From Clostridiales bacterium (GTDB taxonomy: Bacteria > Bacillota > Clostridia > Tissierellales > GPF-1), in the NCBI GenBank assembly GCA_013619125.1, contig JABXKS010000080.1, positions 1-64,000 on the forward strand: a DNA stretch of 64,000 nt, written 5' to 3'. The translations under genes were made by a program, and so were the position numbers. Position 1 is the stretch's first letter. Each line of letters opens with the position of its first letter. Under the pieces are notes generated by a model. That model made no database searches, was not told the DNA's origin, and saw nothing but the letters and a program-made list of their open reading frames with translations. This document shows, piece by piece, positions 2,361 to 23,629 of this stretch.

Positions 2361-5300
2361 TTATTCCGGGTCATGGGTGAAATAGATCTCCGTTTCTTTC
2401 ACACTATATCCCGTGATCTCTTCAAAAACATCACGGTACGCTTGAATTTGCGACTGATAATATGCCTCCAATTGAAGACGGTCCTTTTCCGCTTTATAGT
2501 GATCTGTCTTGTAATCGATAATCACCCATCCGTCTTCTTCTTCAAAGACCAAATCGATCACGCCTTGAAACAGGGAACCATCCGCCAAACAGGTCGTAAT
2601 CCGCATCTCTGGCATACTCGATTTTGCTGACACTATTCTCTTATACAGCTTCGATTCCATAAATTTATTCAAAACTCGTTTGCCGCGTCTTTTCATCATA
2701 GGGTCTGTCGAATCTTGTTCAATCACCATACTTGCAGCGGCTTCTCCATACCGGATCAAGCGCTCAAACGCCAAGTGAATCAAGGAACCAAAGATCGCCG
2801 ACCCGCCAAATTCTCGTTCAACCCCATCCAGAATCGAACGATCGCTGTGAAGACTTGGGGTTACCACCTTATAGGTCTCCTCCTTGGCGGTTTCCTTCCA
2901 CTCCACCCATGGTGCTGTCTCGGTACTCTGCTTATCACGCTCAAGCTTCCTGTCGACTTCCGGCACCTTCAGCTCGCTTTCTACCGCAGGCAATAATGCC
3001 TTCCATGGATTATACTTGTTGTCTCCCATGCTGACCAGAACCAAGGCGTGCTTGGCGCGTGTTGCAGCCACATACAACAGCCGCAATTCCTCGGCCTGTA
3101 AAAAACGTTGTTCCATTTCTTGCATCTCGGAAAAATGGGCTGGCATGGCAACCGGTTTAGATGAAAATCCGATGCGCTCTTCTAGGGACAAAAATCCCTG
3201 CGCGCTTTCATCGTCGCGGCGAACCACCCAGGATGGTTTCCGCTCTTTTTTTCCTTTGTTATTCATGGGTCCCACTAAAAATACGATAGGCGCTTCCAAT
3301 CCCTTTGACTTATGCACATTCATAATCCGTGTCTGATTCAAGCTCCCATCCGGATCCAGTTCCTCCTCCAATTCATGGGAGAGATAGGTCGCAATACGCT
3401 GATGAACCTCTTTCAATTGATAGATCCCCTGAGACTGAAGACCCGCAACAATTTCCATCAGATGACACAAAAGCCCATAGACCGGTTTACGGTCCATGGC
3501 ACTGGCCATAAGACCCGACTCGAAAAGCAGACCCCGAAAGAAGACTGCAGGAGACTTTCTGCTACTCTTCACTCGCCACGTCCTCAGCCATTGTTCAGCA
3601 AAAAGAAATCGCTCTTTCAACTCAGCGTCATTGATCTTTTCGATTTCCTCTTTCTGCAAAGAAACCGTCCCTGTTGTCTGTTTCAAGCAAAGAATTTCCT
3701 GCTCAGAAAAACCGAAGAAAAGTCCCCTCAGAACAATATAACAATGGATCGGACTCGGTTCCACCAGATACTGCAAGAGATAATCCAACTCCTGAATTTC
3801 GGGTTCCTCAAGGGCTTTGTTTTCCCCTGTCACTTGTACCGGTATTCCCCATTCCGTCAGAGTTTTGGCGTAGGTGCCCAATCCCTTTTTCTGACGAGAG
3901 AGCAAAAGAAAATCTTTGTAGGCAGCATTTCCAAAATCAACCGCATGGCGAATCACCTTCGCAATAGCTTCCGCCTCCGCCACAAGGGCTTCCTCTTTCT
4001 TTTTCTCCACCGGCAACTCAATGGCCAGCACACCCGCCTCAATGCTCAATTCCCGATCCATCACCTGATCTTTCACCGTATCCATGGATGCATATTCCGC
4101 TTGATAGGCGTCCTCTTCTGCCGGAAACCATCCCGAAAATATTGGTGTCAGAGCACGAGACAAGGCATTGGTCGATCGAAAGTTCGAAGTTAAATGTAAC
4201 ACCTGGCCCTCATGACCCATCTCTCGCTTCACGCGATTATAGATCTCGATATCTGCGCGGCGGAATCGATAGATCGATTGCTTGGGGTCTCCTACAACAA
4301 AGAGACTTCCCTGCCGCAACTGTCCATCTTTTCGGGTAATCGCATCCATAATCTCCGTTTGGATTGGATCCGTATCTTGAAACTCATCGATAAACAGGCA
4401 ATGAATCTCTTCCTGGTAATGCCTGGCGACTTCTGGTTTTTTCAAGACTTCTGCTGTAAGCAGTAACAGATCGTTGAAACTCACCAGATTCTGTTCTTTT
4501 TTATAGTGGTGATAATAGGTGGCAAATTCACGCAACAACAGAATAGATTCGGGGTACTGCGCCTGCATCCACTGCCGTTGCGCCGCTTCCATTTCCGCCT
4601 TAAAATCAATCAACGAAGTCGACTGAAATTCTTTGGCCCACTTCTTGTCCATCCATTTATTCTGAGTGACCTTGTTTTTCACAGAGGCTGCTTTTCGCAA
4701 TATCCACCACTGATTTTCCTTCTTTTCCAGTTTTAAGTGTGCCAGTGAGAACGCCAATTCAAAGAGGGTTTCCTGCACAGCATCATAAATAACCCCAGAT
4801 TCAGCCAAGGGGATCATGGGTTTCGCTTCATCAATCCACTCCCGAATTGCTTCTTCGATTCGATTCCATCCCGGATAAGGCACTGACTCAGCAGGCAAAT
4901 CCAGATCGGCATTATTGATAACAATCTGTGTATTTTGACGAAATAGCTCTAAAGACAAGCCCATTTCCCGCCAACGATCGGGAGCTGTTTCTTTCGGATC
5001 ATCCAAATAAGCACGCCATGCTCGATCCAGCTCCATCTGCTCATCCAAATCCGTCATCTCTGTAAAGCCCGGTAGGAGTCCGCTTTCTATCGGGTACTCT
5101 TTCAGCACACGCCCGCAAAAACTATGAATCGTGCCGATAAAGAGTTCGTCAAAGGTCTCTACCGCTCGACTAAAGCGTTCCTTCTCTTCCTCGGTTTCTG
5201 CCTTGTCAATGGCATCCAAAAGCCCTTCATAAACTCGCTCCTTAATCTCCCCTGCCGCCTTATTGGTAAAAGTAATGGCGACAATCATAGAGGGCTTTAC

Positions 5301-20828: not shown

Positions 20829-22169
20829 ATGAGAAAAAGAATAATCTCCATCTTCATTGTTACCATCTTGATCACTGCTATCTTCTCCCCGGGATTTGCT
20901 GCAACCCATACAAACCCGGATCGAGAAACCATTGAACAAAAAATTGAAGAAGTTGCATTGCGACGAGGAATTCCAAGCATCATTATGAAATCCATCGCTC
21001 GTGTCGAATCCAGCTTTACACAATTCACATCAAAAGGAACACCCTTTATATCATCAACCAATGATATCGGGGTTATGCAGATCAACGATCGATCCAATTT
21101 TGATCGTGATATGCTGAAATATGACATTGATTACAACATCGAAGTTGGAGCCAATATCCTATTGTACAAATGGGATTATGTGAAAAACACACTTCCATCA
21201 ATTGGCGACATGGATCCAAATGTATTAGAGAATTGGTATTTTGTCCTTTGGGCTTATAATGGTTGGTCAAAGGTCAACAACCCCAACGCGGGGTACAAAA
21301 ATTTAGCATATCAGGAACAGGTATTTTTAATGGCGGACCGCGAGTACAATCAACCCGTAACCGTTATCGATCGAGGAGAACTGCCATCCTCTGGACTTCC
21401 GTCCAAAAACGGTCAGTACGAAACACCGTCACCTAGTCATGCCGGCGATATTCTTTTATATGAGTATGGCGATCGTTTGGCCTCTTATTCGTGGACTAAG
21501 ATCGATCTGTACGACGATCCAAACGGAAAGAAAATCGCAAAGCTTTCGCCCAGCACAGAAATGGTCGTCATCGGCGCGCCAGTTCTAATGAATGGCTACT
21601 ATTGGGAACCCGTACGCGGACTTAATGATCCTTTCGAGGGATGGGTGCTTAGAAACTGGGTTGAAAAAGTTGGGGATTACCAAATGGGCGTCTATTCCGA
21701 TGTGAATGATCCCGTTTTGCAAAACCAATTGCGTGTCTTGGGAACCGAGGGGATTATGCAAGGCTATGCCGATCTCTTTGAACCCCTTGAATTCTTACAC
21801 CAAGAAGAACTTGCCGTGATCCTGACTCGCGCATTTGCCATCGAGACAGAGACATCACAAGAAATCACCATGGTCGATGTATCCGACTGGGCAGAAGATG
21901 CCGTAACTCTAGTTGTCGATGCTGGATTGATGCAGCTTGAGCAAGGCACTTTTAATGGCGAAAAGCTGGTTACCCAAGAAGAATTTTTAGGAACAATCAT
22001 CAAATTAACGGAGAGCGGTGCAGCCTTCCGAGGTCTTGATGAAACGCGTGTTGATCCATCAACCTTGCCGGTCAATCTGCCAGTCGATCTCTTCGCCTAT
22101 ATGACAAGAGAAGACACCGCACGCTTGATCTACAACTTGTTTACAGATAATCAGACTCTTTATTCATAA
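20829..22169 (+). CDS. Secreted lytic transglycosylase-like protein with SH3-like and SLH-like domains
   Basis: A 446-residue exported wall protein. Signal peptide ~1-24 (cleavage after GFA). Residues ~35-180 are an SLT goose-lysozyme-like domain: catalytic Glu ~60 in SIARVESSF, GVMQIN at ~80, AYNGW at ~147. Residues ~215-285 look like a bacterial SH3 domain (IDLYDDPNGKKIAKL, YYWEPVRG). The C-terminal ~290-440 has two SLH-like repeats (LRVLGTEGIMQGY, LVVDAGLMQL) for anchoring to pyruvylated wall polymer. It probably cuts peptidoglycan locally. Monocistronic with its own promoter. Confidence 0.85.
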   Translation: MRKRIISIFIVTILITAIFSPGFAATHTNPDRETIEQKIEEVALRRGIPSIIMKSIARVESSFTQFTSKGTPFISSTNDIGVMQINDRSNFDRDMLKYDIDYNIEVGANILLYKWDYVKNTLPSIGDMDPNVLENWYFVLWAYNGWSKVNNPNAGYKNLAYQEQVFLMADREYNQPVTVIDRGELPSSGLPSKNGQYETPSPSHAGDILLYEYGDRLASYSWTKIDLYDDPNGKKIAKLSPSTEMVVIGAPVLMNGYYWEPVRGLNDPFEGWVLRNWVEKVGDYQMGVYSDVNDPVLQNQLRVLGTEGIMQGYADLFEPLEFLHQEELAVILTRAFAIETETSQEITMVDVSDWAEDAVTLVVDAGLMQLEQGTFNGEKLVTQEEFLGTIIKLTESGAAFRGLDETRVDPSTLPVNLPVDLFAYMTREDTARLIYNLFTDNQTLYS

Positions 22170-22172
22170 GTC

Positions 22173-22202
22173 TTGACAAGGGGTTTCTCCTCATGTTAAA
22201 CT
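22173..22202 (+). promoter_or_regulatory. Promoter driving the fluoride riboswitch and antiporter
   Basis: TTGACA at 22173-22178; about 17 bases later TTAAAC/TAAACT (22196-22202), preceded by TG. The RNA would begin near 22208, just ahead of the aptamer. Confidence 0.65.
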
Positions 22203-22217
22203 ACTGAACAATGACAA

Positions 22218-22302
22218 CAATAGGAGATGAAGCTCTCCTGAGTTTTACTCAAACCGCGACAACGCTAATGGCTTCTGCAGAAATTCTGCAGAAGTCTTTT
22301 TT
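22218..22302 (+). promoter_or_regulatory. Fluoride riboswitch (crcB motif) with overlapping terminator
   Basis: The aptamer fits the crcB consensus: AGGAGATGAAGCTCTCCT (P2 arms AGGAG/CTCCT around GATG), then AAACCGC, a short GCG-ACAA-CGC hairpin and CTAATGGCTTC, whose GCTTC pairs with the earlier GAAGC. An extra GAG-TTTTA-CTC hairpin sits between halves. The 3' arm overlaps a terminator, CTTCTGCAG-AAATT-CTGCAGAAG (22272-22294) plus TCTTTTTT. Fluoride binding would stabilise the aptamer, block the terminator and turn on the downstream antiporter. Confidence 0.92.
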
Positions 22303-22325
22303 ATATCAACGAATAATCTTCTCTC

Positions 22326-22361
22326 CACATTTAGCGGAGTGAACCAATCCGCTAATATGTG
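22326..22361 (+). repeat. Leader hairpin between the riboswitch and the antiporter gene
   Basis: CACATTTAGCGGA pairs with TCCGCTAATATGTG across a nine-base loop, with one bulged base. It has no T-run, so it is not a terminator. It ends ~50 bases before the ribosome binding site. Function unknown; mRNA stability or translation control are possible. Confidence 0.6.
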
Positions 22362-22429
22362 ATGACGTGAAGATGTTCAGGCGCAAACAAGGTTTGAGAC
22401 TGAATTCGTTTGTAGGAGGAATACAACTT

Positions 22430-23605
22430 ATGGCAATCTCTTTAGCACTTATCATCACACTTGGCATGATCGCAAATTACCTTTTCGAAAAAATCAAGCT
22501 ACCGGGACTCTTAGGTATGTTGCTCTTAGGAATAGCCATCGGCCCCTATGGTTTTAACTTGATGCAATCTGAAATTATGGCGGTTTCTGCCGACTTGCGA
22601 AAGATTGCTTTAATCGTCATCTTACTCAGGGCCGGACTTGGTCTGAAAAAAGAAACCCTGCAAAAGGTCGGAAAGAATGCCATTCGCATGAGCTTTATCC
22701 CTTGTTTATTGGAAGGCTTCACAGTCATGTTCTTCGCTCATCTTTTATTCGGCATCTCTTTCGCCGAAGCAGGCATCTTGGGATTTATGCTGGCAGCCGT
22801 CTCTCCAGCCGTGATCGTCCCCTCTATGCTGACGCTAATCGAAAGCGGAAAGGGTTCCGAAAAAGGTATCCCTACCATGATTTTAGCCGGCGCATCTGTG
22901 GATGACGTCTTTGCCATCACCTTGTTTTCATCTATGATCTCCATGTATTTCAGTCAAACCGTCTCCATTGGAAATCAGTTGCTCCAGATCCCGATATCCA
23001 TCGCGCTGGGAATTCTTTTAGGCATAGTAGTCGGCTTATTCTTTGTTCAACTTTTTAAACACATGCGCATCCGCGATACTAAGAAAGCCTTATTACTCTT
23101 AGGGGCTGCAATCTTTATGACCGGTTTAGAAGACGCGCTTTCCAATACCATTGAAATCGCCAGCCTTCTCGGTGTCATGACCCTCGGGTTTATCCTCTTG
23201 GAAAAGTATCCAAAGGTTTCAAAACGACTCTCTGTGAAATTAAATAAGATCTGGGTCTTCGCCGAAATCATCCTTTTTGTGCTCGTTGGCGCGCAGGTCA
23301 ATATCGCCGTTGCCAGCCAATCTCTTGGCCTTGGCATTCTACTAATCGTCTTAGGTCTGATCGCAAGAAGTATCGGCGTCTTAATTTCGATCTCTGGATC
23401 CGGTTACACCTTTGGCGAGAAGCTTTTTTCAGTTGTTGCTTATTGGCCAAAAGCAACGGTGCAGGCCGCCATCGGCTCTGTTCCCTTAGCCATGGGTGTC
23501 GCTCATGGCGAGGTGTTTTTGGCCATTGCCGTCTTGTCCATCATCATGACCGCGCCCCTTGGGGCCATCGGCATTCGCATTATTGGCGAAAAAGTATTAC
23601 AATAA
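22430..23605 (+). CDS. Cation:proton antiporter (CPA family), fluoride-riboswitch controlled
   Basis: A 391-residue integral membrane protein with about 11-13 helices of the Na+/H+ exchanger fold: KLPGLLGMLLLGIAIGPYG early, a broken-helix AGASVDDVFAI in the middle (the DD pair is the usual ion/proton site), and VGAQVN late. Regulation by a fluoride riboswitch suggests it relieves fluoride or HF-linked acid stress, as antiporters are one known class under this switch. ATG 22430 is ten bases after AGGAGG; a GTG frame to 22367 would start at the edge of the leader hairpin and has no binding site. Confidence 0.9.
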   Translation: MAISLALIITLGMIANYLFEKIKLPGLLGMLLLGIAIGPYGFNLMQSEIMAVSADLRKIALIVILLRAGLGLKKETLQKVGKNAIRMSFIPCLLEGFTVMFFAHLLFGISFAEAGILGFMLAAVSPAVIVPSMLTLIESGKGSEKGIPTMILAGASVDDVFAITLFSSMISMYFSQTVSIGNQLLQIPISIALGILLGIVVGLFFVQLFKHMRIRDTKKALLLLGAAIFMTGLEDALSNTIEIASLLGVMTLGFILLEKYPKVSKRLSVKLNKIWVFAEIILFVLVGAQVNIAVASQSLGLGILLIVLGLIARSIGVLISISGSGYTFGEKLFSVVAYWPKATVQAAIGSVPLAMGVAHGEVFLAIAVLSIIMTAPLGAIGIRIIGEKVLQ

Positions 23606-23629
23606 AAAAGAATCCAAAATTTGGATTCC
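23604..23629 (-). terminator. Terminator of the dhaKLM operon (minus strand)
   Basis: GAATCCAAA-A-TTTGGATTC (23610-23628); on the minus strand it is followed by TTTTTTATT. It lies ~120 bases beyond the dhaM stop and abuts the antiporter stop. Confidence 0.7.

Follow-up and report, generated by a model that had tools for sequence, protein, structure and literature searches.

A fluoride riboswitch ahead of an NHA-type antiporter gene in a clostridial genome without a Fluc or CLC match: a candidate stand-in for the usual fluoride exporter

The 64,000-nucleotide stretch of Clostridiales DNA analysed here, hereafter the window, carries on its forward strand a predicted fluoride-responsive leader followed by a single gene for a cation/proton antiporter. 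Transcription would start from a sigma-70-type promoter-like site at positions 22173-22202, recognised by consensus match only (10 of 12 positions), in which TTGACA and TAAACT are separated by 18 nt and a TG precedes the second hexamer (extended TG). Downstream lies a fluoride riboswitch aptamer of Rfam family RF01734 (22214-22284), whose hairpin (22223-22238) is formed, according to the leader alignment, by pairing of GGAG at 22223-22226 with CTCC at 22235-22238, and whose loop supplies the strand (22229-22234) of a six-pair pseudoknot with 22270-22275. An intrinsic terminator hairpin of 12 pairs followed by TTTTTT occupies 22270-22296, its 5' arm starting with the pseudoknot 3' strand, and an additional portion of leader that can form a strong hairpin (22303-22413) then leads to an AGGAGG ribosome-binding site read from the sequence at 22414-22419. 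The ATG at 22430, 10 nt behind this site, is preferred as the start codon over the GTG at 22367 where the mechanically called open reading frame begins. The gene (22430-23605) encodes an NHA-type antiporter of 391 residues, assigned from its Pfam match, alignments and a structure model, and in the sequence it is followed by a stem-loop at 23610-23628 that may mark the transcript end. Its 5' neighbour, a lytic-transglycosylase/SLH protein gene, ends at 22169, and its 3' neighbours are dihydroxyacetone-kinase-type genes (Dha-type, EIIA-man/DAK2/DAK1); because these run on the opposite strand, the antiporter gene looks monocistronic. The interval given in the initial annotation, 22173 to 23605, extends from the first base of the promoter-like site to the last base of the stop codon.

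The leader is well supported as having the layout of a transcriptional on-switch, with a predicted response to fluoride. The aptamer matches RF01734 over its full length (model positions 1-64) at 45.8 bits against a gathering cut-off of 34 (E 1.7e-9); it is the sole over-gathering match in the whole window when all of Rfam is scanned with cmscan, and the only RF01734 match in the 3.4-Mb genome. Folding of the leader gives a z-score of -6.15 against shuffled sequences. An alignment of 19 related leaders shows pairing in 97.4% of the cells of both aptamer helices and in 99.1% of those of the pseudoknot; the helices carry 24 two-sided changes, and their covariation score was matched by none of 500 shuffles and by no slid version of the alignment. 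The initial annotation had proposed a crcB-motif aptamer with an on-switch terminator and had named an Infernal search with RF01734 as one check; the search, the covarying helices and the hairpin with its long-range pseudoknot bear out the first part, and a terminator that begins inside the aptamer 3' strand, thus overlapping the pseudoknot, bears out the second. In the absence of fluoride, the nascent leader would fold the terminator; when Mg-fluoride is bound, the pseudoknot would hold the terminator 5' arm and allow transcription to reach the antiporter gene.

Sequence, hairpin, pseudoknot and a terminator sharing the aptamer 3' strand are thus common to the window leader and the crcB motif, but the window aptamer measures 71 nt against 64 model positions, the leader has 111 additional nucleotides, and the antiporter gene alone is controlled. 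The additional stretch (TTAGCGGA...TCCGCTAA) separates the terminator from the ribosome-binding site, occurs once in the window and is missing in both same-genus relatives, which have about 10 nt or fewer in its place; it is possibly a small inserted element.

The encoded protein belongs to the Na_H_Exchanger family PF00999 (150.3 bits against a cut-off of 26.2, residues 9-385), the only Pfam family that it matches, and scores below the cut-offs of NCBIfam models TIGR00932 for CPA2 (45.1 vs 238.3) and NF003716 for K+/H+ antiporters (56.9 vs 355). Its closest solved relative by sequence is mammalian NHA2 (SLC9B2; PDB 7p1i, 7b4l; E 8.8e-51), ahead of archaeal NhaP. An AlphaFold2 model (mean pLDDT 88.1) likewise finds NHA2 as its best Foldseek match, with a TM-score of 0.85 over the query, and VIA-align places MjNhaP1 (Z 46.1, rmsd 2.4 over 381 residues) somewhat above NHA2 (Z 43.5). 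The fold is shared with MjNhaP1, PaNhaP and NapA, but identity to these proteins is about 20%. NHA2 itself differs from the bacterial window protein in that the two share about 34% identity when aligned by structure and that the latter aligns only from NHA2 residue 113 on, and so lacks the additional N-terminal helix of NHA2.

Residues of the ion site place the protein more closely. In the alignment to bison NHA2, D158 and D159 correspond to D277 and D278, E95 to E214, R313 to R431 and K341 to K459; D158, R313 and K341 are invariant in all 113 family members aligned, D159 is an aspartate in 110 of the 113, and E95 is conserved in all 112 that have a residue at that position. At position 313, where the family has arginine, the six further CPA antiporters aligned from the order all have lysine. 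With NHA2 as closest solved relative, the DD motif and the NHA-type E/R/K set, the protein falls into the NHA clade (SLC9B-like, CPA2), and the description as a CPA-type antiporter that is neither fluC nor CLC-F thus stands. Across the 113 aligned members, no ion-site residue separates riboswitch-linked from unlinked proteins. NHA2 is presented in PMC8850199 as a Na+(Li+)/H+ exchanger, electroneutral in the bison protein, with E214 said to occur in NHA2 members alone and R431 linked to electroneutral exchange. The NHA2-like make-up of the ion site therefore favours cation/proton exchange, and electroneutral exchange of Na+ or Li+ for protons is the most likely activity predicted from the protein sequence.

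Na+/H+ antiporters under fluoride control have been described before. PMC11139923, citing Baker 2012, ranks these antiporters as the next most common partners of fluoride riboswitches after exporters; it recognises two families of fluoride exporters in bacteria, Fluc and CLC-F, and gives antiporters a supporting part in pH homeostasis. A CLC protein and a NhaP antiporter form the Clostridioides difficile operon CD0656-7 under a fluoride riboswitch, as described in PMC11477304. What the window shares with it is riboswitch control of an antiporter; the C. difficile operon includes a CLC protein, whereas the window antiporter stands alone in a genome without a CLC or Fluc match. In the open-access literature searched, we found no paper testing such an antiporter for fluoride tolerance.

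We surveyed the pairing in 41 genomes of the order and 371 genomes of the class, seven of which are common to both samples. Riboswitches occur in 19 of the 41 order genomes, and all 19 lie just upstream of an antiporter orthologue (at least 45% identity), a gene present in 20 of these genomes. The single orthologue with no detectable aptamer (G017) retains the terminator with an aptamer-like ATGACTTCTAC and has lost the 5' half of the aptamer. The class sample contains 64 antiporter genes in 60 genomes, all scoring at least 241 bits and clearly set off from the next match at 72.5. Counting as linked any riboswitch at most 400 nt upstream on the same strand, 48 of the 64 genes are linked, one of them (L209 in genome G052) to a riboswitch that is below the cut-off at 33.4 bits; among the 16 with no linked riboswitch detected, four are fragments, and an Rfam search of unlinked-member leaders at relaxed threshold returned only L209, already counted, and a weak match in L156 (19.9 bits). 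The 83 over-cut-off riboswitches of the class precede this antiporter family in 47 cases, Fluc genes in 13 (one at a distance of 425 nt), CLC-F genes in 6 and other genes in 17, the last three counts having been read by eye from coordinates. The antiporter family is thereby the commonest fluoride riboswitch target in the class sample, and the statement in the initial annotation that it is a rarer riboswitch partner does not hold, the more so as antiporters come directly after exporters in the published ranking cited above.

The pairing also extends well beyond the class. Among 79 named relatives, which are best matches and hence not a random sample, a riboswitch lies upstream at 52 loci and within 400 nt at 50, and the linked loci belong to Bacillota, Fusobacteriota, Nitrospirota, Thermodesulfobacteriota/Myxococcota, Mycoplasmatota and Elusimicrobiota. 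On the family tree the riboswitch label is clustered (20 changes vs 33 in shuffles) and is found in several phyla on both sides of the deepest split; branches without it include a Bacteroidota branch and family f57.

The recognised exporters show a complementary distribution. The window genome (G000), which is 98.4% complete with 3.5% contamination, yielded no match to PF02537 (Fluc/CrcB) or to PF00654 (CLC), so that the suggestion to look for fluC elsewhere in the genome led to a negative answer, and the antiporter is the sole riboswitch-controlled gene found there. The window protein is unrelated to Fluc/CrcB and CLC-F exporters, but the regulatory signal is the same and the occurrence of the antiporter complements that of Fluc. 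Fluc is found in six of the 41 order genomes, all of them without the antiporter and without a riboswitch. In the class sample, Fluc is present in 72 of 371 genomes (71 over the cut-off), namely in none of the 60 antiporter genomes, where about 11.6 would be expected, as against 72 of the 311 others (Fisher p 1.1e-6). Within families, 6.0 overlaps were expected and none was seen, at a P of 2e-4 that is optimistic, since the size of eight of the nine families was counted among the genomes listed; enlarging the families by roughly half gives a P of 2.6e-3. We therefore rule out the notion that the exclusion merely mirrors taxonomy, because it persists within families at either value. The two genes even alternate within single genera, with the antiporter in G368 and Fluc in G241 (genus g166), the antiporter in G363 and Fluc in G193 and G275 (g88), the antiporter in G289 and Fluc in G141 and G186 (g120), and the antiporter in G269 and Fluc in G374 (g42).

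The exclusion of Fluc is near-complete and not absolute, given that 3 of the 50 named riboswitch-antiporter genomes possess Fluc (two Anaerosolibacter and Geosporobacter ferrireducens) and 47 do not; among the other named genomes, 2 of 29 possess it. The absence of Fluc alone proves little, because Fluc is also missing from roughly three in four (239 of 311) of the class genomes that do not have the antiporter. The near-exclusion nonetheless favours a role equivalent to that of an exporter and points to a lowering of cytoplasmic fluoride, through the pH gradient or by direct export. Neither this near-exclusion nor a proposal that the antiporter replaces Fluc was found in the open-access literature searched.

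CLC-F genes were sought as PF00654 proteins with GNNLI/GMGLI, GREGT/V and GEVTP. The window genome has no PF00654 match and no match to CLC-F profile A3, and in the order sample all 11 CLC matches were read and none carries the signature. CLC-F profile matches occur in 148 of the 371 class genomes; 9 of 45 proteins read display the signature (GNNLI/GNNII/GMxLI with GREGT/V and GEVTP), one of them in an antiporter genome (G334), where the CLC-F gene adjoins the antiporter. That genome is one of the 60, and for antiporter genomes the reading covers the best match in all 18 with one above 150 bits. A borderline CLC in G382 has GMALL/GREGV/GEVVP, and a CLC subgroup in five antiporter genomes (L160-L164) has GNDLI or GNDLV, GREGA and GEVIP, near the published CLC-F signature and not counted as such. 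In the 50 named riboswitch-antiporter genomes, with 35 profile matches, none of the 20 proteins read bears the signature, a few motif placements being doubtful. We consequently reject an overlooked CLC-F gene as the explanation, with no signature in the order sample and, among the proteins read in the class sample, a single antiporter genome with one (G334).

Recurrence of the pairing across phyla, together with the lack of a recognisable exporter in the window genome, suggests that the antiporter stands in for the usual fluoride exporter. Entry of HF acidifies the cell and brings in fluoride, and as with weak-acid accumulation generally this fluoride load scales with the pH gradient and retention falls when the gradient does; there is reportedly also a result on intracellular acidification in yeast. 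The scheme that we infer for the fluoride response, the transported ions, their direction and the physiological benefit has a bacterial NHA-clade (SLC9B-like, CPA2) antiporter as the product of the single controlled gene, acting upon HF entry on cytoplasmic pH and the pH gradient, with exchange that would be driven by the pH and Na+ gradients. Where an exporter is absent, uptake of protons with cations moving out would lower the pH gradient, and fluoride would leave as HF; extrusion of protons would relieve the acid load at the price of keeping fluoride inside. The reading that we rank first predicts that a probably electroneutral cation/proton exchanger serves as the dedicated response to fluoride in cells that for the most part have neither Fluc nor CLC-F, and we judge it about evenly balanced between right and wrong. 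The near-exclusion of Fluc counts against it, as a general pH-homeostasis antiporter has no obvious reason to exclude Fluc and such exclusion would be expected of an exporter.

That consideration lends some weight to the reading ranked second, rather doubtful in our estimate, according to which the antiporter clade itself exports fluoride, coupled to protons (F-/H+) or to a cation, as a third bacterial exporter family replacing Fluc and CLC-F. Direct export would fit the contrast between 0 of 60 and 72 of 311 class genomes, the swaps within g166, g88, g120 and g42, the position of the antiporter as the only riboswitch-controlled gene found in the window genome, and the 47 of 50 named genomes without Fluc, with no CLC-F signature among the loci read; in PMC9174904, citing Chintapalli 2015, moreover, one insect NHA is reported as an H+-Cl- cotransporter. 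The ion site argues the other way, since its residues are those of NHA2 and are alike in linked and unlinked members, leaving no substitution that would point to a fluoride site, and the same review describes human NHA1 as having no residue change that would favour anion binding. The third-ranked reading, which we regard as unlikely, is a plain correction of the acid load, in which the exchanger extrudes HF-borne protons and an unrecognised exporter elsewhere handles fluoride. It has the pH-homeostasis explanation of riboswitch-linked Na+/H+ antiporters (PMC11139923) on its side, as well as the G334 antiporter beside a CLC-F gene and the CLC and NhaP-type operon of C. difficile under one fluoride riboswitch (PMC11477304); a mere helper, however, should co-occur with Fluc, and the antiporter stands without it in 47 of 50 named and all 60 class genomes. 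A riboswitch that has decayed to a relic, or a merely chance association with the antiporter, seems highly improbable, for although the truncated leader of G017 attests that decay does occur and the window score of 45.8 bits is moderate, the core is conserved, the pseudoknot covaries and the pairing recurs over several phyla.

Returning to the exchanger as a dedicated fluoride response, a family that is the commonest riboswitch target of the class sample, is present where Fluc is absent and swaps with it inside one genus narrows the question of what deals with fluoride in cells that have neither Fluc nor CLC-F to one about a single gene. More tentatively, and as a proposal that we would sooner expect to fail than to hold, riboswitch-linked NHA-type antiporters might represent a third kind of bacterial fluoride-resistance transporter, acting either by moving fluoride directly or by collapsing the pH gradient such that fluoride leaves as HF. 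If true, this would explain the survival of many anaerobes that have a fluoride riboswitch and no known exporter.

Several other loci encountered in the survey deserve mention in their own right. In family f57, four riboswitch-less antiporters (L158, L159, L199 and L200) immediately follow an acetate-kinase-like gene, confirmed by Pfam PF00871 for L158 and identified by likeness for the other three, an arrangement that hints at a wider weak-acid role of the antiporter family. One antiporter locus of a Nitrospirae genome has two equal-scoring fluoride riboswitches 1.6 kb apart (L091, 2223-2290 and 3851-3918), and one of a delta-proteobacterium has a divergent pair (L093, 3454-3524 on the minus and 3715-3786 on the plus strand). 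Genes for dynamin-family GTPases (PF00350) lie directly behind fluoride riboswitches at L085 (2093-3940), L094 (3301-3975) and L146 (557-2425), followed by the antiporter in two delta-proteobacterial lineages and by an enolase gene in G121; a membrane-remodelling GTPase in the fluoride response would be unusual. Other genes found behind fluoride riboswitches of the class encode a NifU-like protein scoring below its cut-off (L147, 246-668), a DUF1614 membrane protein (L149, 1672-2385), an opine-dehydrogenase-like protein (L150, 153-1427) and a MutS-like protein (L151, 874-2445).
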